From Bradyrhizobium sp. CB82 (GTDB lineage Bacteria; Pseudomonadota; Alphaproteobacteria; Rhizobiales; Xanthobacteraceae), in assembly GCF_029714405.1 (NCBI RefSeq), contig NZ_CP121650.1:3167001-3231000 (forward strand): a DNA stretch of 64,000 nucleotides, written 5' to 3'. The position numbers and the translations under genes were made by a program. Each line of letters starts with the position of its first letter. Positions within the stretch are counted from its first letter, which is position 1. The notes beneath the pieces are model-generated. The model was not told the origin of the DNA. It ran no database searches and saw nothing but the letters and a program-made list of their open reading frames with translations. Positions 9,514-43,860 of this stretch are shown in pieces.

Positions 9514-9538
9514 GATCGTTGCTCCCGGCAGATCCGGC

Positions 9539-12899: not shown

Positions 12900-12909
12900 C
12901 GCTCAGTCC

Positions 12910-20824: not shown

Positions 20825-20979
20825 GCCGGACCCCAAACGCGATTAATCCAGTCTTCCCAATAGGATGGCGCTATAGCACACTGGCGGTTGCGTGCAACAG
20901 AGCAGCCTTTTCGTCAGCGCCAAGTGCCCGCTTATGCTGCACTTTTTGATGGCACGTCGGATCGGGCTGGCCGGCCCGC

Positions 20980-22182
20980 CTAGGCCTTGCCGGTCGAACC
21001 GAGTCGTTCCCTGACGTATGCCTCGAGGTTGCCGCCCTCGAACAGATGGCCAGCCACGCCAGCGGCCTGAGCGGCCTCCATGTCGCTTGCCTTGTCACCG
21101 ATCACCATGCTGCGCGACATGTCGACCGGGAAGCGCGTGACGAGGTCGGTAATCATGCCGGGTGCCGGCTTGCGGCGATCGCTGGTACGGCAATAGCGCG
21201 CAATGGTGCCGTCCGGGTGGTCCGGGCAATACTCGAACGCGTCGATATGGGCGCCGATCAGCGCCATCTGGTCCGCCATCCAGCGATGCAGCGCCACGAC
21301 GTGCTGCTCCTCGTAATAGCCGCGCGCGATGCCGGACTGGTTGGTGATGACAAAGGCGAAGTATCCGGCATCGTTGACGGCTTTCACGGCTTCGCGCGCG
21401 CCGTCGATCCATTCGAGCTTGTCTGCCTCGTAGGCATAGCCGGAATCATGGTTGAGCACGCCGTCGCGATCGAAGAACACGGCCGGCCGCCGCAGCTTCT
21501 CGCGCAGCTCGCGGTCGGCGCGCGCGAGATCCTCAGGAATGCCGATGTCGATGAAATAGCCCCGATAGGCCGTGCCGTGCAGCGCGTCCTGTGCAACAAG
21601 AGAGGGGAACACGTCCTGCTCGAGCGAGGCGGGAAGCGTTGTGATGCCTGCTACGACGGATTTATTGACGACGTAGACGCCTGCGTTCACAGGCCCCGTG
21701 GCGCCCGCACCGGGCGCGACAAATGCCCGCACGACGTCGCCCTCCAGTACGACGCGGCCGTAGCGGTCGCCCTCGACGCCGGCGCGCAGCGCCATGTGGA
21801 CGCCGTCAGCGCGCGCGTGGGCGATCAGGTCCAGCAGGTTGAAGTCGAACAGCGAGTCGCCATTGAGCAGCAAAAAGCGGTCATGGAGAAGAGGGCTCGC
21901 ATGAACCAGCGCGCCCGCAGTGCCGAGCGGCTCCGTTTCCCGCGACACGATGATTCGTGCGCGGCCCCGGCTTGCCCCGGAATACCGCGTCTCGACGAGT
22001 TCGGCCTTGTGGCCTGCGAGGAGCAGGATCTCGTCGAACAAATCGTAGCGGGCGACTTCATCGATCAGCGTGTCCAGGAACGGCTGCCCGCCGACCTCAA
22101 GCATCGGCTTGGGCACGGCCCTGGTTCGCTCGCCAAGCCGCGTGCCGAGCCCGCCGACGAGAATGACGGCCTGTCTCAGCAT
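20980..22182 (-). CDS. Bifunctional sugar-phosphate nucleotidyltransferase / GmhB-like phosphatase
   Basis: A 400-residue fusion. Residues 1-230 are an NTP-transferase (ILVGGLGTRLGERT at 7-20, KPMLEVGGQP, LNGDSLFD). Residues 232-400 are a HAD phosphatase of the histidinol-phosphatase/GmhB group (VFFDRDGVLN at 235-244, VITNQSGIARGYY at 278-290, MVIGDKASDM). The pair matches HddC and GmhB, the guanylyl-transfer and C7-dephosphorylation steps of GDP-D-glycero-D-manno-heptose synthesis. The GmhB zinc loop is altered: YCPDHPDG and YCRTSDRRKP keep C, H and one cysteine, but an arginine stands where the last CRKP cysteine is expected. A general sugar-1-phosphate function remains possible. Confidence 0.8.
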   Translation of the reverse strand: MLRQAVILVGGLGTRLGERTRAVPKPMLEVGGQPFLDTLIDEVARYDLFDEILLLAGHKAELVETRYSGASRGRARIIVSRETEPLGTAGALVHASPLLHDRFLLLNGDSLFDFNLLDLIAHARADGVHMALRAGVEGDRYGRVVLEGDVVRAFVAPGAGATGPVNAGVYVVNKSVVAGITTLPASLEQDVFPSLVAQDALHGTAYRGYFIDIGIPEDLARADRELREKLRRPAVFFDRDGVLNHDSGYAYEADKLEWIDGAREAVKAVNDAGYFAFVITNQSGIARGYYEEQHVVALHRWMADQMALIGAHIDAFEYCPDHPDGTIARYCRTSDRRKPAPGMITDLVTRFPVDMSRSMVIGDKASDMEAAQAAGVAGHLFEGGNLEAYVRERLGSTGKA

Positions 22183-29226: not shown

Positions 29227-29278
29227 AGACAGAGCCAATCGTTCTGATGTGGCCTCTTTCAGCGGGGCGAGTATGAGC

Positions 29279-30049
29279 ATGAAGGCCGTGATCTTGGCGG
29301 GCGGTTTCGGGACGCGCATCACCGAGGAGAGCCACGTCAAGCCGAAGCCCATGATCGAGATCGGCGGCAAGCCGATCTTGTGGCACATCATGAAGATTTT
29401 CTCGTCATATGACATCAACGAGTTCATCATCTGCTGCGGCTACAAGTCGTACGTCATCAAGGAATATTTCGCGAACTATTTCCTCCACATGGCGGACGTG
29501 ACATTCGACCTCGCGACCAATTCGATGGCGGTCCACAACAAGTTCGCCGAGCACTGGAAGGTGACGCTGGTCGACACCGGCCTCAATACGATGACCGGGG
29601 GGCGCCTCAAGCGCGTCAAGGACTATGTCGGCAACGAGACGTTCTGCATGACCTACGGCGACGGGCTCGCGGACGTCGATATCGGGAAGCTCCAAGCCTT
29701 TCATCGCGCCCATGGACGCCATGCGACGGTAACGGCCATTCAGCCGCCGGCCCGCTTTGGCGCGCTCGATATCGACGACGACGTCGTCCAGCATTTCGAG
29801 GAGAAGCCGCGCGGCGACGGCCGCTGGATTAATGGCGGTTTCTTCGTACTGGAGCCCGCGATCTTCGACTATCTCGGCGACGATACGACGATCTGGGAGC
29901 AGGAGCCGCTGAAGCGGTTGTCCCAAGACGGACAGTTGGCGGCCTACCGTCATTCGGGCTTCTGGGAAGCCATGGATACGCTGCGGGACAAGCTGCACCT
30001 GGAGCAGCTTTGGGACGCCGGGCGGGCCCCGTGGAAGAGCTGGCAATGA
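29279..30049 (+). CDS. rfbF: Glucose-1-phosphate cytidylyltransferase
   Basis: A 256-residue enzyme making CDP-glucose from CTP and glucose-1-phosphate. MKAVILAGGFGTRI is the nucleotide-binding start and HVKPKPMIEIGGKPILWHIM is specific to the RfbF/DdhA group. YGDGLADVD and WINGGFFVLEP supply metal and sugar contacts. The ATG at 29279 matches the usual MKAVILAGG start; an ATG two codons earlier (29273) is also served by the GGGGCGAG sequence upstream. The stop overlaps the rfbG ATG as ATGA. It opens the CDP-deoxysugar module and is the first plus-strand gene after a long minus-strand run. Confidence 0.95.
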   Translation: MKAVILAGGFGTRITEESHVKPKPMIEIGGKPILWHIMKIFSSYDINEFIICCGYKSYVIKEYFANYFLHMADVTFDLATNSMAVHNKFAEHWKVTLVDTGLNTMTGGRLKRVKDYVGNETFCMTYGDGLADVDIGKLQAFHRAHGRHATVTAIQPPARFGALDIDDDVVQHFEEKPRGDGRWINGGFFVLEPAIFDYLGDDTTIWEQEPLKRLSQDGQLAAYRHSGFWEAMDTLRDKLHLEQLWDAGRAPWKSWQ

Positions 30050-31131
30050 CTCCCTCCTTCTGGAAGCACAAACGCGTTCTCGTCACTGGTCACACCGGCT
30101 TCAAGGGCGGCTGGCTGGTCGCGTGGCTGCGCCATCTCGGGGCGGAGGTCGCGGGGCTCGCTTTGCCGCCTGCGACGACCCCCAATTTGTTCGATCTGAC
30201 CGAAAGCGCGCAGGATGTCGTCTCTGTGTTCGGCGACATCCGCGATCTTGCCGCCGTCAAGGCGGTATTTGACCAGTTCCAGCCCGAGATCGTGTTTCAC
30301 ATGGCAGCGCAGGCGATCGTGCGCGCCTCGTATGAAGATCCGGTCGGCACCTACGCAACCAACGTCATGGGAACCGTTCACGTATTTGAGGCGGTGCGGA
30401 CAGCCGGCGTACGCGTGCTGGTCAATATTACCAGCGACAAGTGCTACGACAACAAGGAGTGGGTCTGGGGCTACCGCGAGTCCGACCCGCTCGGCGGCAA
30501 GGATCCGTATTCGAGCAGCAAGGGCTGTGCTGAGTTGGTCACGGCGGCCTATCGAGCATCGTTCTTTTGCGGAGCCAATCGAATCGGCTTTGCCAGCGCC
30601 AGGGCAGGCAACGTGATCGGGGGCGGGGACTGGGCGCCCGACCGGCTGGTCCCCGATATCATCGCGGCAATCCGCAACGGGCAGCCGGTGCCGGTGCGTA
30701 ATCCCGATGCGGTGCGGCCGTGGCAGCACGTGCTCGAGCCGTTGTCCGGCTATCTTCTGCTCGCCGAGCATCTCTGGCGGGATCCCGTCGCCTACTCAAG
30801 CGAATGGAATTTTGGTCCTGATCCCGACAGTGTCCGCTCGGTGCGCTGGCTGGTCGACCGCATGGCCGTCTTGTGGGGCGTTCAGCCGCAGCAGATGCCG
30901 CAGCCTGGACAGCACCCGCACGAGGCGCGCCTCCTGGCGCTGGACAGCGCCAAGGCGCGGGCGCATCTCGGCTGGTCGCCACGATGGGGCTTGGAGCGCG
31001 CTGCAGCGGCTGTGGTGGAGTGGTACAAGGCGTTCGATCGCGGCGCCGCAGTCAGGCCGGTCATGATTGACCAGATCGACTCTTTCATGAACACGAAGCG
31101 GGACGAGCCCGCTACTTCCCGGCCCGAATAG
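30046..31131 (+). CDS. rfbG: CDP-glucose 4,6-dehydratase
   Basis: A 361-residue extended SDR that converts CDP-glucose to CDP-4-keto-6-deoxyglucose. VTGHTGFKGGW at 13-23 is the distinctive NAD-binding motif of RfbG/DdhB. Y155 and K159 in DPYSSSKG are catalytic, and NITSDKCYDNKEW is also typical. It is ATGA-coupled to rfbF. In Yersinia and Salmonella the next step is RfbH/DdhC 3-deoxygenation, but no such gene follows here. Instead a methyltransferase and an oxidoreductase do, so the 4-keto-6-deoxy product is probably C-methylated directly. Confidence 0.95.
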   Translation: MTPSFWKHKRVLVTGHTGFKGGWLVAWLRHLGAEVAGLALPPATTPNLFDLTESAQDVVSVFGDIRDLAAVKAVFDQFQPEIVFHMAAQAIVRASYEDPVGTYATNVMGTVHVFEAVRTAGVRVLVNITSDKCYDNKEWVWGYRESDPLGGKDPYSSSKGCAELVTAAYRASFFCGANRIGFASARAGNVIGGGDWAPDRLVPDIIAAIRNGQPVPVRNPDAVRPWQHVLEPLSGYLLLAEHLWRDPVAYSSEWNFGPDPDSVRSVRWLVDRMAVLWGVQPQQMPQPGQHPHEARLLALDSAKARAHLGWSPRWGLERAAAAVVEWYKAFDRGAAVRPVMIDQIDSFMNTKRDEPATSRPE

Positions 31132-31147
31132 GCCCAAACCGGATCAA

Positions 31148-32401
31148 ATGAACATGACGACCACGTCGACGAGACCGCTCACCGAGATCAGAGGCTGCGA
31201 GGTCTGCGGCAATACGCAGCTCGTTCCCGTACTCGATCTGGGGCTGCATCCGCTGTGCGACGATCTCGTGACGGTCGGCGATTCCCGTCAGTGTCGCGAA
31301 TACCCGATCAAGATCGATTTCTGTCCGACCTGCGCCACGGCGCATCAGCGCTTCCAGGTGCCGAAGGAGGACCTGTTCCCCAAGAACTACCACTATCGCT
31401 CGCGCTTCACCGCAGACGTGCTGTCGGGCATGCGAGGACTGGTGGCGACCTGCGCGGAGCGGATGGGGCCCTTGACCGGCAAGGTCGTGCTCGACATCGG
31501 CTGCAATGACGGCAGCCTGCTCGACTTCTTCCGTGAAGCCGGCGCGAAGACGGCCGGCATCGAGCCGACGGGCGCGGCCCAGGACGCGGCGGCCAAAGGT
31601 CATTTCGTGGTGCAGAACTATCTCGGCACAGACACCGCCGCGGAGATCCGTCGCGGCGTCGGCACGCCCGACATCATCACCTTCACCAACGTGTTCGCCC
31701 ACATCGAGGATCTTTCGGGTGTGCTGTCAGCGCTGAAGTCGCTGCTCGGGCCGAACACCGCCATCGTGATCGAAAATCACTATCTCGGCGCGGTGCTGGA
31801 CCGGCATCAGTTCGACACCTTCTATCACGAACATCCGCGCACCTATTCGTACAACTCGTTCAGCTTCATCGCCAAGTCGCTCGGCCTCGACATCGTGAAC
31901 GCGGAATTCCCTGCGCGCTATGGCGGCAACATTCGCGTGATCCTCGGCCGAGCTGCTCAGAAGACGAGCGATCCCGTCGAGGACGGTGTGATCGCACGGG
32001 AAAGCAATTTTCTCACCGACTTCGGAAAGCTCGCGCGCGATGTCGATCTCTGGAAGGCCCGCAAGGGCGAGGAGTTGAAGCGGATTTTCGCCACCCATGG
32101 CCCGATCCGGGCCAAGGCGTTCCCCGGTCGTGCGGCGATCCTGGTCAAGCTACTCGGTCTGACCGAAAGCGAGATCGTCGCTGTTCACGAGAAGCCCGGC
32201 TCGATCAAGATCGGAACTTATGTGCCGGGTACCCGCATTCCGATCGTCTCCGACGACGAGCTATTCGCGCGCGGCGACCAGGGCAAGCCGCTGCTCAATC
32301 TCGCCTGGCACATTTCCCGCGAAATCCGGCAATATCTCTCCGACAACGGATACGGAGGACCGGTGATCGACGTTCTCAGCTCCGACGACTTCGATGCCTG
32401 A
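31148..32401 (+). CDS. Sugar C-methyltransferase (NovU/TylC3 type, zinc-binding N-terminus)
   Basis: A 417-residue three-part protein. The N-terminal zinc-binding region has C17/C20 in CEVCG and C59/C62 in FCPTCA. The SAM domain has VLDIGCNDGSLLDF at 114-127. The C-terminal domain (from about 250) carries the GGNIRVILG and KIGTYVPGTRIP segments. This architecture belongs to C-methyltransferases acting on NDP-4-keto-6-deoxysugars at C3 or C5, with a conserved histidine/tyrosine region such as FYHEHPRTYSYNSF. Following rfbG it most likely makes a methyl-branched CDP-4-keto-6-deoxyhexose. The methylated carbon cannot be told here. Confidence 0.87.
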   Translation: MNMTTTSTRPLTEIRGCEVCGNTQLVPVLDLGLHPLCDDLVTVGDSRQCREYPIKIDFCPTCATAHQRFQVPKEDLFPKNYHYRSRFTADVLSGMRGLVATCAERMGPLTGKVVLDIGCNDGSLLDFFREAGAKTAGIEPTGAAQDAAAKGHFVVQNYLGTDTAAEIRRGVGTPDIITFTNVFAHIEDLSGVLSALKSLLGPNTAIVIENHYLGAVLDRHQFDTFYHEHPRTYSYNSFSFIAKSLGLDIVNAEFPARYGGNIRVILGRAAQKTSDPVEDGVIARESNFLTDFGKLARDVDLWKARKGEELKRIFATHGPIRAKAFPGRAAILVKLLGLTESEIVAVHEKPGSIKIGTYVPGTRIPIVSDDELFARGDQGKPLLNLAWHISREIRQYLSDNGYGGPVIDVLSSDDFDA

Positions 32402-33326
32402 GGCCGCCGTATTCACGATCCTCGGATCGGGTTTCGGGATGTACGGATATTTGCCCGCGCTCATCGAGTGCGGGACGAAGGTGGTGTTGCCGGAGCGCTA
32501 TCGATCTACCGTCGGTGGGCGGCCGGAGTTGGTTCAGTACGTGTCGCAGGTCGCGTGGTGCGCAACCACGGAGCAGGCGCTGGCGCGAGCCAACGGCGCA
32601 GTGGTTGCGCTCCGCCCGGCCGACCAGGCCGACTGGATTCCGCGGCTCGCCCGTATGACTGATATCCGCGACCTGATCCTGGAAAAGCCGGTCGCGCCCA
32701 CGCCGCAGCACGCCGCCTCCCTGCTCGACGAGTTGGAGCGGGCCGGAAAGCGCTACCGTGTCGGTTACACCTTCCGCTTCCTACCCTGGGCAGAGCGGCT
32801 CCGCGTAGCCCTCGGTTCAGGTGTCGACGGCATTTCTCTCGACTGGATGTTCCTTGCGCACCATTACCGCGCCAATCTCGACAACTGGAAGCGGTTCGAC
32901 GCCAGCGGTGGCGGCGCACTTCGCTTCTACGGCATCCACCTGATCGCGCTCTTGGCCGAGTGCGGTTACGACGAGGTATCGGAGTCAGCACTCTCCGGAC
33001 CCTCGGACGCCGAGACGGTTGCCTGGGAAGCGACCTTCACCGGAAAGGCTTTGAGCCCCTTCGTGCTGAAGATCGATACCCGCGCGGGGGAAACGTGCTT
33101 CAGGATCAACGCGCGACAGCGCGCTGAAGGAGACAGGATCATCGCGGACCAGGCCGATCCATTCTCCTCGGTGCAGCAAACGACCGTGCACGTCCGCGAC
33201 CCTCGCGTCGAAGTGCTGAACCGGCTATGCCGATCGCTGGACGAGGCGGACGGCGGCTACACGCAGCGTCAGCGCGCCATTGTCCGACTCTGGACGCATG
33301 TGGAGGAGCAGTCGCGGCGCCGCTAA
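32394..33326 (+). CDS. Gfo/Idh/MocA-family oxidoreductase, probable 4-keto-sugar reductase
   Basis: A 310-residue protein overlapping the methyltransferase by eight bases. FTILGSGFGMYGYLPAL is a Rossmann-type nucleotide-binding start, DLILEKPVAP is the EKP motif that marks the family, and GGGALRFYGIHLIALL holds the substrate-binding histidine. As last gene of the CDP-sugar module it may reduce the branched 4-keto-sugar to the final CDP-deoxysugar, although 4-reductases of such pathways are usually SDRs, so a different redox step is possible. Its stop codon lies inside the stem of a 14-bp hairpin that may end the transcript. Confidence 0.75.
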   Translation: MPEAAVFTILGSGFGMYGYLPALIECGTKVVLPERYRSTVGGRPELVQYVSQVAWCATTEQALARANGAVVALRPADQADWIPRLARMTDIRDLILEKPVAPTPQHAASLLDELERAGKRYRVGYTFRFLPWAERLRVALGSGVDGISLDWMFLAHHYRANLDNWKRFDASGGGALRFYGIHLIALLAECGYDEVSESALSGPSDAETVAWEATFTGKALSPFVLKIDTRAGETCFRINARQRAEGDRIIADQADPFSSVQQTTVHVRDPRVEVLNRLCRSLDEADGGYTQRQRAIVRLWTHVEEQSRRR

Positions 33327-33463: not shown

Positions 33464-34798
33464 CTATCGAGGTGCCAGGTCCAGCGCCTGCCGACGCGCG
33501 GCCGTCCAGATGTCGCTGTCCACCCTTGGATTCTGGACCTCGGGATAAGGCCGATAGCTTTTCTCCACAACCTCGAGCGAAGAGCCGGGAAGCAGGATGG
33601 CGGACCTGTAGGCCTCATACGACCACGTCAGCCACAGCCAGAAAATTATGGATGTCGTCGCCAAGCGCGACCGCATCGACTGCCCGAGTTCGCAACAAGA
33701 AACGACCAGGAGGATACCGTAAGCGAAGGCGGGAAGCGCAAGGTGACGGTCACGCGCGTAAGAGTATGAAAACAACGTGCCGCCGAGAATCGTAAGCACC
33801 AAAATCACCAACCACACGGGAACATCCCGTCTTTTGATCCGCATAGCTAGTCCGATGGCGATCAGGACAGTTGAGGCGGTATGCAACAGCATGTGATAGG
33901 TCACGTGCGAGATGATGATGCCCCATTGGGTTGCGCGAAACAGCAGCGCCGCGAGCTGCGCGGTCACATTATAGACGTAGAGCCTGTAGACGGCATGCCC
34001 GGGAAACAGGCTCATTCGCTGCTCGTGAGTCAGATAATCGAAGAAGTATCCGACCGACTCGTTGACCCCGCCGGCCCCGATGGATGGGCCGAGCACGAGG
34101 GCGCGCAAGAGCAGATAGCCCGCCGTTATGCCGCCAAACACAAGCGCCGCCCTGATCGGCGCGGTGCGCAGGAAATAGAGATAGAAGATCGCGAGTGCGA
34201 GACCGTTCTCTTTCGATAGCACTGCAACCGCAAAGGCCAGCGCGCAGAGCACAAGCTTGGTGTTGATGGACTGCTCGGACAAAATCGTGGTCAGGGCGGC
34301 CGCAAAGCAGATCAAGATGATGACGTGCGGCAGCTCGCTGATCCAAATGAGGGAGCCAGGCAGGAAGGGAGATCCAAGCGTAAAGGTTACCAGCAGGAGG
34401 GAAGATTCCCAGGGCAGGCGAAGTTGCCGAACAACGACAAAGCCGAGCCACATCAGCAAGAGGAACGCGGCGAATTGCACCCAGCGATAGGGTGCGAGTT
34501 CCATGCCGAACAGAAGGTACAGACTCTTCAGAAAGATTTCCGCCACCGGCCGGTAGAACGGGCTCTGCAGGATCCAGGCGGGCGAAAGCGGGAGTTCCCA
34601 AAAACTCTGCTTTCGCAGCTTGGTGAACCAAATGAGATCGTCGTTCGGCTCGAAGGGCTGCTTGAGCATGACGTAAAAGAGCAACCCGGCGAGCAAGACG
34701 GTTCCGATCGCCATGACGGTGAGCAGGGCTGCGCGAGGTTCGATCCGCCCAGTCCAGCCTTGCAGCTCGATCCGCTCATCCACGGTCTTTTCACTCAT
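33464..34798 (-). CDS. GT-C-like integral membrane protein
   Basis: A 444-residue protein with about ten to eleven hydrophobic segments. After the first (about 24-44) comes PFEPNDDLIWF, with D53-D54 where GT-C enzymes keep catalytic aspartates. Further features are FYRPVAEIF and a central GPSIGAGGVNESVGYFFDYL loop. It forms a pair with the related-looking gene at 34918-36591. Probably a periplasmic glycosyltransferase acting on a polyprenyl-linked donor. Identity of the sugar is unknown and no donor-making GtrB lies in this transcript, so the enzyme at 28106-29050 or another may serve it. Confidence 0.6.
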   Translation of the reverse strand: MSEKTVDERIELQGWTGRIEPRAALLTVMAIGTVLLAGLLFYVMLKQPFEPNDDLIWFTKLRKQSFWELPLSPAWILQSPFYRPVAEIFLKSLYLLFGMELAPYRWVQFAAFLLLMWLGFVVVRQLRLPWESSLLLVTFTLGSPFLPGSLIWISELPHVIILICFAAALTTILSEQSINTKLVLCALAFAVAVLSKENGLALAIFYLYFLRTAPIRAALVFGGITAGYLLLRALVLGPSIGAGGVNESVGYFFDYLTHEQRMSLFPGHAVYRLYVYNVTAQLAALLFRATQWGIIISHVTYHMLLHTASTVLIAIGLAMRIKRRDVPVWLVILVLTILGGTLFSYSYARDRHLALPAFAYGILLVVSCCELGQSMRSRLATTSIIFWLWLTWSYEAYRSAILLPGSSLEVVEKSYRPYPEVQNPRVDSDIWTAARRQALDLAPR

Positions 34799-34917
34799 TG
34801 TTTCGACCTAGGGGCATGGAGGTATCCTCGGGATGCGGGATCGGCAGCGGGGCCGCCACTGCATTACCAAAGGCGATCGGTGCGGTCGATTTGTTTTCGG
34901 CTGCGGGGGCGCGGCTA

Positions 34918-36591
34918 TCATCGATTGCTGCAGCATGGCGCCTGACAGACGCCCCCGATCGCCGCGGTCTCTCGCTCCACGCGAATGGCGCGGTCGCCCG
35001 ATGCGCCAAGCCACTGGCCGATGGTCCGAAAAAAGCCCGGCGGCTCTCGGATGGCAACCAGGCTGGCCGTTTCGATCTGGCCGTTCGAGGTAAAGCCGCC
35101 GAACCCATATTGCGGATCGGAGCGATGGCTCTCGCAAAGTGCGGCGAGGGCGGTGATCACGGGCGGAACGGCAGATTTGGCGTAGTCGTTCGTCGCGGGG
35201 TCAAGAACTTCCCGGTTAGAGATCGCAAGGTTCGGGCCGCTCTTTCCTGCGTTGACCAGGAAGGAAAGTTCGTAGAACGGGAAGAAGCGGCCGAACGCGC
35301 GGTACTCCCTGTCCGCCTCCACGACCAGCATCATCGTCCCCGGAGGCGAGGGATTCTGCGTGAACTCTTCGAGCAGCATGTGGGTCTCGCGCGCGTCCGC
35401 GAGCAGCCGTTGCGTGAAGGACAAGTCGAGCAGCAGAAACCCCGCCGCGATTGCCGCGGCTGCCCGCCATAAGAACCGCGGGGGCATGATCAACCGCAAT
35501 ACAGCAACGATGACGAATCCGCTCACCATCAACAGCGTCGTCTGGTGGCGCGTTTCCCATAATCCGGTAAAGCGAGGCGGCTGACCGACCATCACGTAGG
35601 GGAATAGCGCGCAAATGATGAGCGCTCCTGCGGCGGCGAGCGTCACGGCCGTGACGATCCAGCGCGGCCTGTCCAGATGATCGCCCTTTGTCGCCAGGGG
35701 CAGCCGCCAGAGCCATGCCAATGCGGCGAAGGCCGTGATTGCCATTGCAGCCGCGACTACAAGCTCCGGCAGGTCGCCCCGCGTGGGCAGAAGCGTGCCG
35801 GCATCCCTGAACTGGTCGATGAAGGCGACGGCTGTTTGCTTGAGCGCGGCCGGAATGCTCATCCTGAACTTGTTGTAGTTCGCGTAGAGACCGCTGGTCG
35901 GCTCGAGCAGCTGCTTTGCCGGCCAATAGACAAGGGGCAGCAAGAGGAGTTCGCCCCTGCCGGCCACGCCCCACAGCATCGCGCTGATGCGCTGATCGAG
36001 CGGAGAGGAATGCTCCGTTTCCCGCCAAGCCGCGAGCGCGACGATCGCAGGGGCAACCCATGCCAGCACAAGAAACGAGTTGGTCGAAAAGGCCATCGTC
36101 AGAAGAACGACGATCGCGACTCGTTGCGGGATCGAGGAGCGGTTCAGATCGCGCAGCAAAAGCACGAGCCCAAGCGCGAAAAACAGGCTTGAGAACGCGT
36201 ATGGGATGGTCGACAGAATGAAGCGCGCCTGGTTGAGCGGCGCCAGGGCGGTCAACAGCGCAGCCCAGAATGCACTCGCCGCCGACCATTGGGTGACCCG
36301 TCTGATGATGTTGTAGATTAGTGGCGGCAGGGCGCACCACAGTACCAGCGCGGCAATGATCCAGACGCGCGGCTGTGCCAGGTCCGCAAAGGGGGCGGCC
36401 AACACAAATTGTTCGCGGCGCCCCATCTGCTTGAAGAACTCCCAGAACGTGCCGAGTTCGGAATACGCCAGCAAAACCCAGTCATCCCAGAGCGCCTGGT
36501 TGATCAGGATGATCGGCCCCCAGGCGGCAAGGACGGCAAGTACCAGCAAAGCCTGGTATTTGACGTCACAATCTGCAGCTTTCATGCTCAT
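34918..36591 (-). CDS. GT-C-like integral membrane protein
   Basis: A 557-residue protein read from MSMKAADCDV; upstream codons overlap the previous gene and look non-coding. About twelve hydrophobic segments are followed by a soluble C-terminal domain of about 120 residues. The first loop reads NQALWDDWVLLAY with D36-D37, the same acidic pair seen in the three other GT-C-like proteins of this window. It lies 53 bases after the SDR at 36645-37484 and may be the tail of the second nonulosonate operon. If so, it could be the transferase that uses or decorates that operon's product. Confidence 0.6.
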   Translation of the reverse strand: MSMKAADCDVKYQALLVLAVLAAWGPIILINQALWDDWVLLAYSELGTFWEFFKQMGRREQFVLAAPFADLAQPRVWIIAALVLWCALPPLIYNIIRRVTQWSAASAFWAALLTALAPLNQARFILSTIPYAFSSLFFALGLVLLLRDLNRSSIPQRVAIVVLLTMAFSTNSFLVLAWVAPAIVALAAWRETEHSSPLDQRISAMLWGVAGRGELLLLPLVYWPAKQLLEPTSGLYANYNKFRMSIPAALKQTAVAFIDQFRDAGTLLPTRGDLPELVVAAAMAITAFAALAWLWRLPLATKGDHLDRPRWIVTAVTLAAAGALIICALFPYVMVGQPPRFTGLWETRHQTTLLMVSGFVIVAVLRLIMPPRFLWRAAAAIAAGFLLLDLSFTQRLLADARETHMLLEEFTQNPSPPGTMMLVVEADREYRAFGRFFPFYELSFLVNAGKSGPNLAISNREVLDPATNDYAKSAVPPVITALAALCESHRSDPQYGFGGFTSNGQIETASLVAIREPPGFFRTIGQWLGASGDRAIRVERETAAIGGVCQAPCCSNR

Positions 36592-36644
36592 GGAATCAGT
36601 CACGCTGGCTTTCGGCGCTCGTGGGCAGTCGGACGCGGCCGCCT

Positions 36645-37484
36645 CTACCACACGCTCCTGCCGCCATCCATGACCAGGTTCTGTCCGGTCATGTAGCTCG
36701 ACGCGTCCGAGCAGAGGAACTGCACGGCGGCGCGGTATTCGTCGACGTCGGCCATGCGGCCCATCGGGATCAGCCGCGTGAGCCGCTCGACGAAAGCGGG
36801 ATCCTGGTTATTGAAGACGCCGCCGGGCGAGATCGCATTGACGCGGACGCCGTGGTCTGCCCAGTACGTCGCAAGGTATTTCGTCAACCCGATCAGGCCG
36901 TGCTTGATCACGGAGTAGGTCACGGGCTTGACCGGCTGTTCCTCCTCGCGCGTGACACCGGGCTGGCGATAGAGCCGTTGGTCCGGCGCGATCACGCCGA
37001 GATCGGAGGCAATGTTGAGGATCACGCCTCCGCCGCGCCTGGCCATCTCGCCGCCGAACATCTGGGCGCACAGCATCGCGCCGGTGAGGCCGACGGCGAT
37101 TTCGGTTTGCCATTGCGGCACCGGAAATGCCTCGAAGCGTGAGGAGTGCATGACGCCGGGCGCCGACGTCACCTTCGGATCGATCGCGGCGTTGTTGACC
37201 AGGATGCCGACGGCGATGCCGCGGCTCGCGAGCTGTTCGTGCGCGGCACGCACCGAGTCCTGTGACGTGACGTTGATCTCAAGCGCAATCAGATCGGCCT
37301 CGGGCATGGCCTGCTTCAGTGCCGCGATGGCGGCTTCAGCCTGCGCCAGGCCGACGTCGGTGACGACCACGCGAGCGCCTGCTTCCGCGAGTGCTGCGAC
37401 ATGCTGCTTGCCGAGCAGTCCACCAGCACCGGTCACGAGCGCCGTTCGTCCGGTCAGGTCGTAGCGGGAGGAGGGGCTTGCCAT
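36645..37484 (-). CDS. SDR oxidoreductase, PtmA-like paralogue
   Basis: A 279-residue classical SDR with TGAGGLLGK at about 19-27, LVNNAAID, and YSVIK as catalytic YxxxK. It closely resembles the SDR at 12078-12899: both have a (G)(L/V)(M/I)APDQR(I/L)Y segment, K(H/Y)LATYWA, GVRVN..(T/S)PGGV and the same C-terminus. It is the last clear biosynthetic gene of the second nonulosonate-like operon, 14 bases after the SDR at 37499-38260. An equivalent redox step in two parallel pathways is the simplest reading. The substrate is unknown. Confidence 0.8.
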   Translation of the reverse strand: MASPSSRYDLTGRTALVTGAGGLLGKQHVAALAEAGARVVVTDVGLAQAEAAIAALKQAMPEADLIALEINVTSQDSVRAAHEQLASRGIAVGILVNNAAIDPKVTSAPGVMHSSRFEAFPVPQWQTEIAVGLTGAMLCAQMFGGEMARRGGGVILNIASDLGVIAPDQRLYRQPGVTREEEQPVKPVTYSVIKHGLIGLTKYLATYWADHGVRVNAISPGGVFNNQDPAFVERLTRLIPMGRMADVDEYRAAVQFLCSDASSYMTGQNLVMDGGRSVW

Positions 37485-37498
37485 GAAAATGCTCCTGT

Positions 37499-38260
37499 TC
37501 AGCTCCGCAACTGGCCGCCATCGGCTACCATCACGCTGCCGGTGATGAAGGAGGCGCGGGGCGAGGCGAGGAAGGCAACGAGGTCTGCGATCTCCTCAGG
37601 TCTGCCGAGGCGGCGCAGCGCCACCTCGCGTTGGAGCATGTCGTCGACCGCCTGCCTGTTCTCGGCCATCCTGCGGGCCCAGGTGCCGTCAACCGCCAGT
37701 ATGTTGCCGGGCGCCACCGCATTGATGCGGATGCCTTCGAGGCCGAGCGGCCGCGCAAGTCCACGCACCGTCGCGTTCAGTGCAGCCTTCGCGGCATAAT
37801 AGGTAACGGGCGCCCCGATCGCGGCCATTCCCGCGATCGATGAAATGCAGATGATGGCGCGATCGCCGCTGCCGCGGGCCATCAGCGGACGCGCGGCTTC
37901 GATCATGTTGGTCGCTGCGAACAGATTGAGGTCCATCATCCGCGACCATTCCGCCGCTGTTTCCTTGCCGGGCGGGACGGAAGCGCCACTGCCGACATTG
38001 CAGACGAGGATGTCGATCTGGCCCCATTGCTTTTCGACATCCTGCACCAGTGCGCTCGCGGCCCCCGGGTCGGTGACGTCTGCGACATGAGCCGAAGTGC
38101 TGCCGGTGATCGTCGCGCGCGCCGCATGCAACGCTTCCGCCCCGCGCGCGGCAAGCGCGACTCTTGCCCCCTCGAACGCGAGCGTCGTCGCAATCGCAAG
38201 CCCGATTCCCCGGCTGGCGCCGGTGACGAGCGCGACGCGGTTCTCGAGCTCGAGCTTCAT
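37499..38260 (-). CDS. SDR oxidoreductase
   Basis: A 253-residue classical [15 protein letters not shown] near residue 14 binds NAD(P), then VCNVGSG stands where NNAG is usual, and [10 protein letters not shown] supplies Y and K. It is ATGA-coupled with the TIM-barrel isomerase upstream. Its role would be a ketone/alcohol interconversion on a sugar or ulosonic acid intermediate. FabG-like fatty acid function is less likely given the operon. Three SDRs in one operon suggest several positions of the sugar are inverted or oxidised. Confidence 0.82.
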
Positions 38261-39105
38261 CGCGCGGCGTCCTCGATCCAGCCCACGGTCATGTCGCGAT
38301 ACCTGGCGAGCGCGCCGGCGTGATCGCCGTCGGCCGCGCGTGCGGTCTGGAGAATATACTGTCCCTTGTAGCCGGAGCGCTCGATGAGCCGGATCGTCTT
38401 GGCGAGGTCTGCGTTGCCGGTGCCGAGCGGCACGGTGGTGCCGCCGCGAATGCGATCCTTCACATGGACGTTGAGGATGCGTGGCGCGTAGGCCTCGATC
38501 TCCTCGTCGCTGTCATAACCGAGTGAGGCGCTGTTGCCGCTGTCGTAGTTGATGCCGAACGTTTCGGCTGGAAAGGCCTGCATGAACCGGGCGAGCTCGC
38601 GCGGCGGCAGATCGGATTCGAAGATGATCTTGACGTTCTGCCGTGCGAGCGCCTCGCGGCGGGCGAGCAGCACCCGCTTGAGCGTATCGCTCTCGCTCTC
38701 GCGCTCGATCCTGCCGTTGTCGACCAGCGGAATCACGACGAATTCGATGCCGAGCCGGCTGCAGGCGGCGAGCAGGAGGTCGAGGTCGGCAACAAGCGCG
38801 TCGCGTACCACGGCGTCGACCTTCCAGAACGGTGCCTGCATGAAGCAGTCGCCGGTCAGGCTCGGGATGCGCATGCCGTTGGCGCGCGACAGCGCGATGA
38901 TCTCGTTCTGCCCCTGCGTGGTCATCAACGGATTTTCGCGCAGCCGCTCCTGGTCGATGGTCCATTCCATCCGCGTCAGGCCGAGAGCTTTCGCGCGCGA
39001 AAATTCCTCGCGCCATTCATTCCAGGGAAATGCCTGGATCTTGCCGTCGACGAGCGCCGACAGCCTGCCTTGCATGAAGCCGATGCGTTCGAGTGTTGCG
39101 GTCAC
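38257..39105 (-). CDS. TIM-barrel sugar isomerase/epimerase (xylose-isomerase-like superfamily)
   Basis: A 282-residue AP-endonuclease-2-type barrel. Acidic and histidine residues expected to bind a divalent metal occur in [24 protein letters not shown] and LNVHVKDR; the start [11 protein letters not shown] is common among such sugar isomerases. It is ATGA-coupled on both sides. Members interconvert aldoses and ketoses or epimerise ketoses and inososes. A second barrel of the same superfamily is fused to NeuB two genes upstream, so the operon has two isomerase domains. Confidence 0.8.
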
Positions 39106-39863
39106 GGTTGTCTGTCCAAACTGGTGGCGAGGCCTTTGGCGGTCCAGCCGCCGTCGACGAAGATTTCCTGGCCGGTCACATAGGCCGACGCTGGCGATGC
39201 CAGAAACACGGCCGCGCCGACCATGTCGGCGGGTTGGCCCCAGCGCCCGAGCATGGTGTGGCGGCGCCGGTCTTCATGCATCGCCGGATCGGCGAAGCTC
39301 TTTGCGGTCATCTCGGTCGCGACATAGCCGGGCGCCAGCGCATTGACGCGGATGCCGTCGGCAGCGAAGTCGGCGGCAAGCGCCCGCGTCAGCCCGGCGA
39401 GGCCCGCTTTCGCAGCGACGTAGCCGGGATTGCCCGGGAAGCCGCGCACTGAATTGATGCTGGTGACGTTGATGATCGAGCCGCCGGCCGTCTTCATCAG
39501 CGGATGGGCGGCGAGGATGGTTGCATAGACGCCGGTGAGATCGGTCGCGACCGTACTGCGGAAGCGCGCGAGCTCGCTCTCGGCGCTTTGGGCGGGAAGG
39601 CTGATGCCGGCCGCGTTGACCAGCACGTCAAGCCGCCCGTGCTGCGCGCTGACAATGGCAACCGCACGCGCGATCGCGGCATCGTCGGAGAGATCGCAGG
39701 CGATCGGCGTCACGCCCTGTGGCGCGGTGCCGGAACGGCTGAGCCCAAAGACCTCGGCGCCGCCATCCTTCAGGCCTGCCGCAATCGCAGCCCCGATACC
39801 GCGCGAGGCGCCGGTGACGACCGCGATCTTGCCGGCAAGCGAGAAGGCGCCGAGGTCAGGCAT
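39102..39863 (-). CDS. SDR oxidoreductase
   Basis: A 253-residue classical SDR with [12 protein letters not shown] near residue 18, VNAAGIS and catalytic YVAAK in GNPGYVAAKAGLAG. The C-terminus ASAYVTGQEIFVDGG is standard for NAD(P)-dependent sugar or keto-acid SDRs. It overlaps the cytidylyltransferase upstream by eight bases and is ATGA-coupled to the isomerase downstream. Probable oxidation or reduction of a ring hydroxyl of the operon's sugar. Substrate unresolved. Confidence 0.82.
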   Translation of the reverse strand: MPDLGAFSLAGKIAVVTGASRGIGAAIAAGLKDGGAEVFGLSRSGTAPQGVTPIACDLSDDAAIARAVAIVSAQHGRLDVLVNAAGISLPAQSAESELARFRSTVATDLTGVYATILAAHPLMKTAGGSIINVTSINSVRGFPGNPGYVAAKAGLAGLTRALAADFAADGIRVNALAPGYVATEMTAKSFADPAMHEDRRRHTMLGRWGQPADMVGAAVFLASPASAYVTGQEIFVDGGWTAKGLATSLDRQP

Positions 39864-40545
39864 AGCCGTAAGCCTGTATGATCGCGGCGCAGAGCTTGAC
39901 GTCCTCGGGGCGGTCGATCTGGAACATCTTGTGACGCTCCATCACGTGAAAGCCGATCTTGCCGCCCAGGCGATTGCTCTGCTCGCGCAGGAGTGAGGGG
40001 ATCAGGACGTAGAACGAGCCGTTTTCGAGATAGCGCTTCTCGATCTGCTGCCGCATGCGGCGATTGCGGAAGTCGTAGTTGATCGGCTCTGGTCCGTCCG
40101 CGCCGATCCGCCAGTTGAAATAGTCCTCGACCTCGCAGACCGAGAGCAGGCTGTCGAGCTTTTCCCGCTCGAAGGTGTCGAGCGCTTGTTCGATATCGCG
40201 GGGCTCGCGGATCGGAGAGGTCGCTTGGAGCGCGACGATGCGCTCGAAGCGGCCCATGCGCTCGTCGATCGCGTCGAGCGCGTGCAGCCAGGCGGATTCG
40301 GACGAGGCGAGATCGCCGGAGATGTCGTCCGGGCGGCGCACGCCGACGGCGCCGGCGGCTTCGGCTGCGGCCAAAATCTTGTCGCTGTCGGAGGACACCG
40401 CGACCACGTCGACGCCGCGCGCCGCGCGCGCCTGCTCGACCGTCCAGGCGATCAGCGGCTTGCCGCAGAGATCGAGCAGGTTCTTGTGCGGAATGCCCTT
40501 GGAGCCGCCGCGCGCGGCGATCACGGCCAGCGTCTTGCGCGCCAT
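39856..40545 (-). CDS. CMP-sugar synthetase of the acylneuraminate cytidylyltransferase family
   Basis: A 229-residue NeuA-like enzyme. LAVIAARGGSKGIPHKN at 6-22 is the CTP-binding motif, VVAVSSDSDKIL and LQATSPIRE follow, and FQIDRPEDVKL ends the domain. It activates a 3-deoxy-ulosonic acid to its CMP form. The start overlaps the NeuB-fusion stop as TGATG. It differs clearly from LegF at 12910-13611, for example in the VEDYFNWRIG and YLENGSFYV substrate-side segments, so it probably handles a different acid. Confidence 0.85.
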   Translation of the reverse strand: MARKTLAVIAARGGSKGIPHKNLLDLCGKPLIAWTVEQARAARGVDVVAVSSDSDKILAAAEAAGAVGVRRPDDISGDLASSESAWLHALDAIDERMGRFERIVALQATSPIREPRDIEQALDTFEREKLDSLLSVCEVEDYFNWRIGADGPEPINYDFRNRRMRQQIEKRYLENGSFYVLIPSLLREQSNRLGGKIGFHVMERHKMFQIDRPEDVKLCAAIIQAYGYA

Positions 40546-42464
40546 CAGATGTGCCCCTCGAGCCGCTCGAGCGCCGTCCAGAAGCCTTCGCCCATGTTCT
40601 TGTGGCCCTGCCAGATTTCCGGAATGAAGGATGCGCTGGGCGCGTGCTTGCGCAACACCTCGCCGACTTCATCGAAATCGATCTCGCCTTCGCCGACCTG
40701 AAGGCCTTCGCCGTCCAGCCCCTTGGCGTCGCCGAAATGCAGATGCGCGGTGTGCGGGCCGAGCTGTGCCAGGCCTTGCGCGAAGTCGAAGCCGAAGTGA
40801 TTGGCGGCGAGCTTGGTGTGGGAGATGTCGACGCACATCCGCAAGTCATGCTTGGCGCAGAATGCGGCGGACTCTTCCGGGAAGATGAAGATGTTCTGGT
40901 GGCGCTGTCCGCCGAAGTGCCATGGGAACGGCGCCATGGTCTGGGGCGTCAGCTCGACGCCGTCCATATCGAGCTCCTTCAGGCTTCGCGCAAAGATGCG
41001 GTAGCGTTCGGCTTTCTCTTCCGGCGGCAGCGGCTCGTCCATGGTGAAGCCGCCGATATTGGCGACGATCGGCGGGCGCTTCGTCTTCGGGAAGAATTTC
41101 TTCAGGCCGCGGGTGATGTCGATCACCGCCTGTGTCTGCTCGAGCGAGTAGCGCCGCAGCGTCTCGTCGGGCGTCGCGAGATCCATCAGCTTGGAGCCGG
41201 CGAACAGCTCCGGCGCGTGCACGACGAAGCCGAGATCGTAGGTGCCGGACAGATAGGCCGCCGGATCGCGCTCCATATCGCTATAGCTGAGGTGGAACTC
41301 GATGATGTCAGGCTCGCAGATTTCGAGGAAGCGCTCCGTGTCGTGATAGCGCACCGGGACGCCCCACGGGCGGTCGAAGCGGTAGCGCCGCGCTTTCGCG
41401 GCGCCCTCGTCGAGGTCGCTCTGAAAGAAATAATCGTCTGCTGCCATTTGCCGCTTGAGGACCTTGCCGATCAGTGCCGGCATTTTCAGCGGCGACAGGC
41501 CCTGGCCCGGGCTCTTCACGGCGATGTCGTCGTCGGAGATGACCGTGCCGGGCGAGATGTCGCGCGCAGCGACGAGGCTCTTGGCGAGGTTCTCGCGATT
41601 GATCAATTCGCCCTGGCTCAGCGCACGCTCGGCGAGCTTTTCGCCTCGTGCCGCTTCCACCTCGCGGATGCCTGCGACGAGCGCCTTGAATTCTTCCGGC
41701 TCCAGGCTCGCAGCATGGTCCGGGCCTTCCATCTCGCGGTCGAGCGTGATGTGGCGCTCGATCACGACGGCGCCGAGTGCCACTGCTGCCGTCGACACCG
41801 CGGTGCCGCGTTCGTGGCCGGAGTATCCCACGATCGGATGGATTTCGCGCAGCGTCTGCATGAAGCGCAGATGGATGTTGTGAAGCGCCGCCGGGTAGGT
41901 GCTCTGGCAATGCAGGAGCACATAGCTCGCCTTGCGCTCGTCGAGGAATTTTGCCGCGGTCTTGATTTCGTCCGTCGTGCTCATGCCGGTCGAGACGATC
42001 AGCGTCTTGCCGGTGGCGATCAGCTTGGCGAGCAGTGGAAGGTTGGTGAGGTCGGCGGAGGCGACCTTGTAGGCCGCAACGCCAAAACCTTCGAGCACCG
42101 CGACGCTTCTGGCGTCCCAGGGCGTGCAGAGATATTGAATGCCCTTCGAGGAGCAATAGTCGGCGATCTTCTTCTGCTGCTCCGTCGTCAACTCGAACCG
42201 GCGGAGCAGATCGAGCGTGTATTCGACGGCGAGGTCATCATCCTTTCCGGACAGCGAGGAAGCGCGATAGACCTCGTCGAGCTTGCGCATCTGGAACTTG
42301 GCGCAATCTGCCCCGGCAGCGACCGCAGCATCGACCAGCGCGATGGCGCGGTCGAAATCGCCGTTGTGGTTGTTGCCGATCTCGGCGATCACGTAACAGG
42401 GCTCGCCATCGCCGACCAGGCGGTCGCCGATGCGGATCGGGGCGGTCTTATGGGGCGAAGTCAT
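40545..42464 (-). CDS. NeuB-family ulosonic acid synthase fused to a C-terminal TIM-barrel isomerase
   Basis: A 639-residue protein, nearly twice a normal NeuB. The start ATG at 42464 is preferred over 30 arginine-rich codons upstream. Residues 20-275 are the NeuB barrel (VIAEIGNNHNGD at 25-36, AKFQMRK, STGMSTTDE, GYSGHERGT, ERHITLDR at 236-243). Residues 288-345 are a SAF domain (KSLVAARDISPGTVIS). Residues 365-639 are an AP-endonuclease-2-like barrel with likely metal ligands in VVHAPEL, GVELTPQ, CVDISHTKL, LHFGDAKG and IPEIWQG. The SAF domain is kept, so NeuB activity is expected; the second barrel may isomerise the substrate or product. Confidence 0.85.
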   Translation of the reverse strand: MTSPHKTAPIRIGDRLVGDGEPCYVIAEIGNNHNGDFDRAIALVDAAVAAGADCAKFQMRKLDEVYRASSLSGKDDDLAVEYTLDLLRRFELTTEQQKKIADYCSSKGIQYLCTPWDARSVAVLEGFGVAAYKVASADLTNLPLLAKLIATGKTLIVSTGMSTTDEIKTAAKFLDERKASYVLLHCQSTYPAALHNIHLRFMQTLREIHPIVGYSGHERGTAVSTAAVALGAVVIERHITLDREMEGPDHAASLEPEEFKALVAGIREVEAARGEKLAERALSQGELINRENLAKSLVAARDISPGTVISDDDIAVKSPGQGLSPLKMPALIGKVLKRQMAADDYFFQSDLDEGAAKARRYRFDRPWGVPVRYHDTERFLEICEPDIIEFHLSYSDMERDPAAYLSGTYDLGFVVHAPELFAGSKLMDLATPDETLRRYSLEQTQAVIDITRGLKKFFPKTKRPPIVANIGGFTMDEPLPPEEKAERYRIFARSLKELDMDGVELTPQTMAPFPWHFGGQRHQNIFIFPEESAAFCAKHDLRMCVDISHTKLAANHFGFDFAQGLAQLGPHTAHLHFGDAKGLDGEGLQVGEGEIDFDEVGEVLRKHAPSASFIPEIWQGHKNMGEGFWTALERLEGHI

Positions 42465-42477
42465 CGACAATCTCGTC

Positions 42478-43860
42478 TCACTCGTCGGCCGGCTGGGCCG
42501 GGAAGCGCGATTTCCAGGTCCTGAGGCCGTTCTCCTCGAACATGATGCGCGCACAGCGCAGGCCCTTCTGCTCCAGCGCGGAGATCAGCGGGTAGCGCTC
42601 GAACGGGCGCACGAAAAACATGAAATAGCCGCCGCCGCCGGCGCCAAGCAGTTTTCCGCCGACCGCGCCGTGCGACTTGGCGAAGTCATAGATATCGTCG
42701 AGCTCGTCCGAGGAGATCTTGGAGCTAAACTTGCGCTTGGCGTGCCAGGCCTCGTCGATCAGCCGGCCGCATTCGAGAAGCCGGCCGCGCAGGAGATGCT
42801 TGCGTATCTCGCGCGTCACCTCCTTCTGCTTGGCGGCGGCGGCGACCGCGTCCGAGGTCTCGTGCTGCGCCTTCTGGTCGCGGTGGATCGCGCCGGAGTC
42901 ATGCCCTGCGCCGGTGTAGCAGAGCACCAGACTCTCCTCGAGCTCGGCGATGATGTTGGGGTCGAGGCGCAGCGGCACGATGGTATTCTGGTCGGAGGAG
43001 AACTCCATGTGATTGAAGCCGCCGAACACGGTGGCATATTGATCCTGCCAGCCGCCGGGGATGTTGAGCATCAGCCGCTCGGCCTGGAATGCCATCTCCG
43101 CGATCTCGTGGCGGTCCCATTGATCGCTGCGGAATTCGTTGAAGCAGCCGATGATGGCGGAGGACACCACGGCCGAGCCGCCGAGCCCGGAGCCGACCGG
43201 GAAGTCGGCGGAGACCTCGAGCTCGAACCCGTAAGTAGGCTTGATCAGGCGGATCACCGATCTGATCAAGGCGAGATCGCCGCCCGCGCCGAGCTCGGCG
43301 AGACTGTTTGCCTCGACCGTGCAGCGGAAGTCGTGCGAGTAGATCCAGATCCGGGCGTCGCTGCGTCGCCTGAGCGTCGCATGGGCGTACATCTTGATCG
43401 TGGCATTGATGACCGCGCCGCCGTCGTTCGCCACGAAGTAGTGGGTGAGGTCCGTGCCGCCGCCGGAAAAGCTGATACGCACTGGAGAGCGGGCACGTGC
43501 GAACACCTCGCTCTCTTCCGACAGGTTGAACAGCTCGCGGCTGAACACGTCGACCAGCCGGCCCTCGGCGTCGAGGATCGGGACCACGTGGACACGCTGA
43601 TCGAGCAGTTTGAGGATTTGCTCGCGCGGTCCGCCGGCGCGCGCCCAGACGAACTTGCGATTGACGCAGGCTGCGACGCTGTCGTGGATGGTGATGCCGG
43701 TCAACATCCGCCTGCGGATGTCGCCGTCGGTCACCGCGCCGACGATCCGCCCGCCGGCATCCTGCGCAAAGAGGATGCCGAGCATGTTGGCATTGAGGCG
43801 CCGGAAGGCTTCCTCAATCGTCTCGGTCTCGGCGATGGTGACGAGTGTTCGCTCAAGCAC
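42478..43860 (-). CDS. CBS-domain-fused GHMP sugar kinase (HddA-like)
   Basis: A 460-residue fusion. Residues 1-115 are a CBS pair (GAVTDGDIRRRML at 41-53, VHVVPILDAEG at 90-100). Residues 124-460 are a GHMP kinase: RSPVRISFSGGGTD at 124-137, ATP-binding PVGSGLGGSA at 221-230, GGWQDQYA, and C-terminal GGKLLGAGGGGYF. The kinase part resembles heptose-7-phosphate 1-kinases such as HddA. It is the first gene of the operon, 13 bases before the NeuB fusion. It would phosphorylate the sugar that enters the pathway, with adenine nucleotides sensed by the CBS pair. Which sugar is unknown. Confidence 0.83.
   Translation of the reverse strand: MLERTLVTIAETETIEEAFRRLNANMLGILFAQDAGGRIVGAVTDGDIRRRMLTGITIHDSVAACVNRKFVWARAGGPREQILKLLDQRVHVVPILDAEGRLVDVFSRELFNLSEESEVFARARSPVRISFSGGGTDLTHYFVANDGGAVINATIKMYAHATLRRRSDARIWIYSHDFRCTVEANSLAELGAGGDLALIRSVIRLIKPTYGFELEVSADFPVGSGLGGSAVVSSAIIGCFNEFRSDQWDRHEIAEMAFQAERLMLNIPGGWQDQYATVFGGFNHMEFSSDQNTIVPLRLDPNIIAELEESLVLCYTGAGHDSGAIHRDQKAQHETSDAVAAAAKQKEVTREIRKHLLRGRLLECGRLIDEAWHAKRKFSSKISSDELDDIYDFAKSHGAVGGKLLGAGGGGYFMFFVRPFERYPLISALEQKGLRCARIMFEENGLRTWKSRFPAQPADE

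Follow-up and report, generated by a model that had tools for sequence, protein, structure and literature searches.

In Bradyrhizobium sp. CB82, a soil bacterium, a seven-gene operon and its partner genes probably build an unusual sialic-acid-like surface sugar. The operon lies on the minus strand at positions 36645-43860 of a 64,000-nucleotide stretch (NZ_CP121650.1, positions 3,167,001 to 3,231,000; hereafter the window), part of a 10.1-Mb, two-contig genome. We tentatively read it, from sequence, as directing biosynthesis of a CMP-activated 3-deoxy-ulosonate that is not 5-N-acylated, made by a separate branch of NeuB synthases and plausibly derived from a heptose. The argument draws on gene content and order, their conservation, the co-inheritance of a partner gene, the intact catalytic residues of the synthase and the loss of its contact to an N-acetyl group. 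Use of the acid at the cell surface is suggested by the glycosyltransferase and flippase-type genes near the operon.

Sialic-acid-like sugars influence bacterial encounters with hosts, phages and plants. The NeuB branch described here occurs in about a quarter of sampled Bradyrhizobium genomes and in environmental genomes, and is annotated as sialic acid synthase although it no longer has the residue by which sialic-type substrates are recognised; among the 120 matches listed, named relatives are called N-acetylneuraminate synthase, acetylneuraminic acid synthetase or SpsE/sugar phosphate isomerase. The operon represents a new variant of NeuB-dependent CMP-ulosonate pathway. None of the cut-offs tried for known synthases, kinases, cytidylyltransferases or nucleotidyltransferases is reached, and the parts of the open-licence PubMed Central (PMC) literature that were covered hold no description of the gene set, which does not prove its absence. 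The same literature yielded nothing on a nonulosonic acid pathway with a GHMP kinase, and nothing under six names for C10 ulosonic acids.

A conserved seven-gene operon

The original prediction, made from the sequence alone, described seven minus-strand genes in a set order. All seven were matched by Pfam, in that order:

42478..43860, minus strand: CBS-pair and GHMP sugar kinase, HddA-like, the first gene (CBS, GHMP_kinases_N/C)
40545..42464, minus strand: NeuB synthase-SAF-xylose-isomerase-like TIM (triosephosphate isomerase) barrel fusion (NeuB, SAF, AP_endonuc_2)
39856..40545, minus strand: CMP-ulosonate synthetase (CTP_transf_3, 1.9e-21)
39102..39863, minus strand: short-chain dehydrogenase/reductase (SDR) oxidoreductase A, sdrA (adh_short_C2, 9.8e-59)
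38257..39105, minus strand: stand-alone xylose-isomerase-like barrel with a UlaE-like fold, tim (AP_endonuc_2, 5.5e-20)
37499..38260, minus strand: SDR oxidoreductase B, sdrB (adh_short_C2, 2e-55)
36645..37484, minus strand: SDR oxidoreductase C, sdrC, which we take to be PtmA-like (adh_short_C2, 5.4e-43)

Spacings from the kinase to sdrC are +13, -1, -8, -4, -4 and +14 bases; four of the six junctions overlap, in agreement with the mostly overlapping arrangement foreseen. The start of the NeuB fusion was set at ATG 42464, because the longest open reading frame, from GTG 42554, would run 77 bases into the kinase. The seven proteins also bore out an expected gap, with no Pfam match to a 4,6-dehydratase, an aminotransferase or a hydrolysing 2-epimerase.

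Scanning genome contigs with the NeuB fusion as query yielded 165 confirmed relatives, the nearest being from Bradyrhizobium. The best 80 were studied, comprising 38 Bradyrhizobium-type loci (including L009 and L078, from metagenome-assembled genomes) and 42 others. The seven-gene order, which the original prediction proposed to look for elsewhere, is kept in 36 of the 38, and contig ends truncate the remaining two (L024 and L029); such conservation argues that the operon is more than a chance grouping. Beyond Bradyrhizobium, a Devosia locus (L037) has the same seven genes, preceded there by two others (gmhA, hddC-gmhB, kinase, neuB-barrel, cmp, sdrA, tim, sdrB, sdrC), and three further loci (L043, L047 and L072) have all seven, interrupted behind neuB by a GmhA-like gene. 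To speak of novel gene content, as had been done, is therefore too strong; the set is widespread, though uncharacterised. Its distribution is patchy: the barrel was found in 3 of 149 genomes of the family, all from this genus, and in 5 of 398 across the phylum, four of them again from the genus. The set has thus probably moved horizontally.

Neighbours in the non-Bradyrhizobium loci were defined by tblastn and counted where enough flank was available. The kinase immediately precedes the NeuB fusion in 39/39 loci with at least 700 bases upstream; an HddC-like nucleotidyltransferase is present in 29/34, a CMP synthetase in 27/34 and a GmhA-like SIS protein in 25/34. Where at least 8 kb of downstream sequence was available, sdrC (23/24), the stand-alone barrel (20/24) and sdrB (17/24) are common, sdrA is found in just 2/24 and an aminotransferase in 17/24. 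In seven loci (L042, L049, L059, L062, L063, L077 and L083) a class III aminotransferase and a VOC protein replace sdrA between the CMP synthetase and the barrel, sometimes with an added methyltransferase; these loci perhaps make the acid in an aminated or methylated form.

A separate synthase branch and two barrels

The fusion matches Pfam NeuB (PF03102, 5.6e-84), SAF (7.3e-14) and AP_endonuc_2 (1.2e-17). Its synthase domain scores below the cut-offs both for N-acetylneuraminate synthase (TIGR03569, NnaB; 335.1 against 399.65 bits) and for the pseudaminic acid synthase PseI (TIGR03586; 226.4 against 340.25). In an alignment of 81 NeuB fusions, numbered after Neisseria meningitidis NeuB (PDB 1xuu), the eleven residues tested on the phosphoenolpyruvate (PEP), metal and catalysis side (E25, K53, Q55, K129, S154, Y186, S213, H215, E234, H236 and D247) are identical to those of the N. 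meningitidis enzyme in 81/81. Five other positions differ, with Gly133 replaced by Ala, Glu134 by Asp, Asn184 by Ser, Phe288 by Asn (Asn in 80 fusions, Ser in one) and Arg314 by Ser, the last in every fusion. The fusion also carries a C-terminal xylose-isomerase-like barrel that the N. meningitidis protein lacks.

Arg314 contacts the N-acetyl group of N-acetylmannosamine (PMC6795526). Arg also stands at this position in a solved pseudaminic acid synthase, and it is kept in all nine TIM-less NeuB proteins of the window and loci that reach the position (two of the eleven do not). Loss of this contact speaks for a neutral aldose as substrate. A second report describes a position occupied by Gly in enzymes of the Neu/Leg type and by Phe in those of the Pse type (PMC7371886); our own equation of it with position 133, Ala in the fusion, is provisional. 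In a tree, 28 chosen fusions of both types (the second is described below) form one clade with support of 100/100 and a long stem, set against 11 other NeuB proteins, three of which are long branches of unsure placing. The prediction of a NeuB/NeuA-type pathway lying off the sialic, legionaminic and pseudaminic routes thus held up, given the missing N-acetyl-binding Arg and scores below the NnaB and PseI cut-offs, as did the view that the product cannot be matched to a known acid. For the cytidylyltransferase, the best NCBIfam match, PseF, falls below its cut-off (104.6 against 205.7 bits).

Although both barrels of the operon are xylose-isomerase-like, BLASTP found no similarity between them. 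The fused barrel retains a complete E-D-H-E metal set, as do ketose 3-epimerases, UlaE and xylose isomerases (E504 in 80/81 fusions; D546, H576 and E616 in 81/81). Its structural model (predicted local distance difference test score, pLDDT, 89) is closest to ketose 3-epimerases, xylose isomerases and endonuclease IV, sharing the fold at a distance (template-modelling scores of about 0.6-0.7). The stand-alone barrel (pLDDT 95.3) has UlaE as its best Foldseek match (3cqj, 5.8e-15). Unlike UlaE and the isomerase families, it mostly has Gln at the fourth metal-ligand position (63 of the 68 relatives; the other five have Glu), and its chemistry may differ for that reason. A check of viral contigs confirmed no relative of the fused barrel among 23 stretches fitting the pattern.

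A sister branch belongs to the same NeuB clade and has the same signature residues, with the CBS pair fused to NeuB itself. These CBS-NeuB-SAF-barrel proteins of about 750 amino acids come from Aeromonas, Magnetococcales, Rheinheimera, Rhizobium and others among the 120 best matches listed. In 122 aligned sister proteins the eleven residues are kept in all and position 314 is Ser in 120 and Gly in two, whereas position 288 is mostly Val in place of the operon fusion's Asn. A CBS pair may sit on the pathway-entry enzyme in each branch and sense the CMP-acid. In three sister loci a CMP synthetase is adjacent. In one small cluster (L103, genome G293), whose protein is identical to a Magnetococcales record, a Maf-like protein recognised by eye accompanies the CMP synthetase and the CBS-NeuB-barrel, which suggests use in flagellin glycosylation. 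The CBS-NeuB-barrel gene was unmatched in E. coli genomes; it matched 94 plasmid records, one of them, from Ensifer canadensis, over at least 80% of its length.

Heptose-type partners and the candidate product

The known GDP-heptose set consists of HddA, HddC, GmhB and GmhA; the seven-gene operon resembles it in having an HddA-like kinase and a partner gene outside the operon:

20980..22182, minus strand: HddC-GmhB-type fusion of a sugar-1-phosphate nucleotidyltransferase and a HAD phosphatase (NCBIfam matches)

The kinase (Pfam CBS 3.2e-10, GHMP_N 1.7e-17, GHMP_C 7.1e-08) has HddA (NF049969, 254.3 bits) as its best NCBIfam family and matches PDB entry 3k85 at 3.8e-58; of its PDB matches the top two are named heptose kinases and the following two putative sugar kinases. 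The partner contains the motifs GGLGTRL...PKPM and DRDGVLN.

The partner's link to the operon was followed in 117 Bradyrhizobium genomes, of which 30 hold the NeuB domain at E <=1e-100 (holders) and 87 do not. A full-length HddC-GmhB homologue, full length being judged from the aligned range, is present in 33 genomes: 30/30 holders and 3/87 others (Fisher p 7.7e-25, overstated owing to kinship among the genomes and their overlap with the scanned loci). All 30 holders have it on the operon's contig, 5.9 to 24.9 kb away; it directly follows sdrC in G021, and in G031 it adjoins a gmhA gene whose product reaches 206 bits (cut-off 209). One of the three exceptions, G043, has a divergent NeuB fusion (47% identity), and no NeuB fusion was found in G112 or in G100, which is 81% complete. 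Because many copies stand beside a separate legionaminic-type operon, this possible confounder was checked. In eight loci (L015, L020, L021, L027, L028, L030, L032 and L060) a homologue with 52-58% identity stands beside pseudaminic-type genes; the neighbours resemble LegB and LegC only distantly, and of those tested PseB is above cut-off in L015 and L030 and PseC in L030. The 19.9 kb around the G112 copy gave no legionaminic-type query match at threshold except the nucleotidyltransferase itself. HddC-GmhB hence accompanies the operon beside both legionaminic-type and, in these eight loci, pseudaminic-type genes.

The assumption that the seven genes make up the whole set is not supported, since in relatives the kinase and NeuB fusion are accompanied by HddC-, GmhB- and GmhA-like genes. 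The functional unit is likely wider than 36645-43860 and likely includes the gene at 20980-22182. The entry sugar, previously left quite open, can also be narrowed: the kinase is nearest to heptose-7-phosphate kinases, and its partners point to heptose without proving it. The names of those partners in relatives rest on two loci run against NCBIfam. In L049 the best nucleotidyltransferase model is HddC at 115 bits (cut-off 300), and in L037 the mannose-1-phosphate guanylyltransferase model slightly exceeds it (108.6 against 104.6 bits); the two SIS proteins reach 181.4 and 206.3 bits with phosphoheptose isomerase, both under the cut-off of 276, and that of L049 aligns with solved phosphoheptose isomerases at 1.2e-57 across the catalytic stretch.

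Substrates, order of steps and carbon number in the following scheme are what we infer from these likenesses. The HddA-like kinase would phosphorylate a C7 sugar phosphate at C1, with its CBS pair sensing the CMP-acid as feedback. The HddC-GmhB protein would then strip the 7-phosphate and attach a nucleotide, and the SDRs and stand-alone barrel would alter stereochemistry through oxidation, isomerisation and reduction; the many relatives with an aminotransferase at this step would make an amino variant. The fused barrel would supply the active site of NeuB with the free aldose, doing the job of NeuC, LegG or PseG in known routes, NeuB would condense it with PEP and the cytidylyltransferase would form the CMP-acid. 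The HddA-, HddC-, GmhB- and GmhA-like partners argue for a heptose as that aldose, and hence for a C10 (3-deoxy-dec-2-ulosonic) acid. This full version, a CMP-activated C10 3-deoxy-ulosonic acid from heptose with the fused barrel replacing the NeuC/LegG/PseG step, is possible though doubtful. Were heptose the source, the acid would found a new size class, larger than the 8- and 9-carbon acids, and NeuB would be fed in a new way; were the acid C10, the relatives named N-acetylneuraminate synthase would be misnamed.

Several observations weigh against a heptose origin. The kinase falls short of the curated HddA cut-off of 600 bits. The phosphatase half of HddC-GmhB is below the GmhB cut-off (154.9 against 178 bits), and the nucleotidyltransferase half is below that of HddC (108.9 against 300) and scores slightly better with the mannose-1-phosphate guanylyltransferase model (114.8, cut-off 440). 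One holder, G072, has a stop within HddC-GmhB. The window's own genome has no recognisable GmhA (controls positive in 9/14), its best SIS_2 protein being N-acetylmuramate-6-phosphate etherase-like (242.6 bits, cut-off 168), and strong GmhA matches (E <1e-40) show no enrichment in holders (3/30 against 16/87). A weaker, unlinked SIS protein is commoner in holders (22/30 against 11/87; Fisher p 1.2e-9, uncorrected for relatedness), an excess that genome kinship may have caused, and seven holders, this genome among them, have neither. The weaker protein was inspected in three genomes, with reading frames in two; the one tested reaches 84 bits with GmhA (cut-off 209):

2757-3458 of L107 (G068) and 2767-3369 of L109 (G115): weak GmhA-like SIS protein, adjacent to an epimerase-like gene and distant from the operon

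The sister branch adds to this side. In its three loci no GHMP kinase gene was found in the stretches covered, and in G043 the HddC part is degenerate, lacking the GTRL and PK motifs, with the GmhB part intact:

9289-10416 and 13402-15840 of L091 (G043): CBS-NeuB-barrel near HddC-GmhB, no kinase found

Finally, the fused barrel's role as aldose supplier is a guess from its position. The operon also differs from the GDP-heptose set in its linkage to NeuB and a CMP synthetase and in the CBS pair on its kinase.

Alternative readings and surrounding genes

The alternative that survives best, though we consider it unlikely, is a Kdn-type C9 acid. NeuB would take a neutral hexose (mannose or mannose-6-phosphate), which the fused barrel would supply by isomerising fructose or fructose-6-phosphate to the aldose, and the heptose-like enzymes would have drifted to hexoses. 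Loss of the N-acetyl contact suits any 2-hydroxy aldose. Two sister loci, L103 and L106, hold little beyond the CMP synthetase and CBS-NeuB-barrel, and a common metabolite could therefore feed the sister-branch NeuB. The missing GmhA fits as well, as do scores under the family cut-offs for the kinase and for the HddC and GmhB parts and the higher score of the window's nucleotidyltransferase with the mannose-1-phosphate guanylyltransferase model. A hexose route, however, needs no GmhB-type phosphatase, yet HddC-GmhB is present in every holder, and GmhA-like genes occur in 25/34 related loci, one aligning with solved phosphoheptose isomerases.

Somewhat less probable still is that two products are made: an NDP-heptose for the same glycan would come from the kinase and HddC-GmhB, joined in relatives by GmhA, and an unrelated C9 acid from the NeuB fusion together with the CMP synthetase, barrel and SDRs. 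The make-up of the GDP-heptose set, the NCBIfam matches and a sister-branch NeuB fusion with no adjacent kinase gene all favour such a split. Set against it, the kinase adjoins the NeuB fusion in all 39 loci with enough flank, more tightly than the HddC-like (29/34) or GmhA-like (25/34) genes do, and the CBS pair is carried by the kinase in the operon's branch and by the NeuB fusion in the sister branch, as if marking the entry enzyme of a single pathway.

The Kdo8N pathway, KdnA/KdnB, uses a DegT-type aminotransferase, and none is present among the operon's seven proteins. Bradyrhizose, likewise a ten-carbon sugar, occurs in the O-antigen of photosynthetic Bradyrhizobium; a link to the operon is unsupported.

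Elsewhere in the window stands the separate legionaminic-type operon. The legionaminic acid pathway is named by LegB/C/G/I, PtmE/F/A and LegF; we take the CBS-nucleotidyltransferase here to be PtmE-like, the Gfo/Idh protein PtmF-like and the SDR PtmA-like:

12078-20836, minus strand: legionaminic-type operon (dehydratase, DegT aminotransferase, Epimerase_2, NeuB, CBS-nucleotidyltransferase, Gfo/Idh and PtmA-like SDR)
17439-20836: its dehydratase, aminotransferase and hydrolysing 2-epimerase
16369-17442: its own NeuB

The two pathways share a NeuB-type synthase, a CMP synthetase and a PtmA-like SDR, and both have a CBS pair on an early enzyme (the PtmE-type protein in one, the kinase in the other; 31% identity over 96 residues). 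The seven-gene operon differs in having no dehydratase, aminotransferase or hydrolysing epimerase and in a NeuB that lacks Arg314 and carries a fused barrel. That it makes a legionaminic, pseudaminic or sialic variant by borrowing the absent enzymes from this neighbour, which encodes them and whose last SDR is 42% identical to sdrC, is very improbable, given a NeuB under the NnaB and PseI cut-offs with Ser at the N-acetyl contact throughout, a LegG-type epimerase in just 2/42 non-Bradyrhizobium loci (some short-flanked; PseG not searched for) and the eight Bradyrhizobium loci that pair the operon with pseudaminic-type genes instead. Within the legionaminic-type operon, a cytidylyltransferase-like frame lies inside 12910-14004, with 39% identity to the cytidylyltransferase of the seven-gene operon; a frame at 12899-13654 was rejected as a gene, being a shadow frame.

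Around the seven-gene operon, the next gene has no Pfam match and overlaps it by 7 bases, provided its GTG start is right. Consensus scans for promoters and terminators did no better than shuffles. Two stretches were noted nearby:

33464-36651, minus strand: two large proteins directly after the operon, hydrophobic by eye, with no Pfam or NCBIfam match
29249-33326, plus strand: by eye a deoxy-sugar set of cytidylyltransferase, CDP-glucose 4,6-dehydratase, methyltransferase and oxidoreductase

A homologue of one or other of the two large proteins adjoins the operon in G031, L008 and L017. At positions 8547-12820 of L040, from a metagenome-assembled genome binned as Mycolicibacterium, only the kinase, NeuB-barrel and sdrC were found, next to genes that by eye resemble those for ribosomal protein L1 and a transposase; this set is either mobile or mis-binned.

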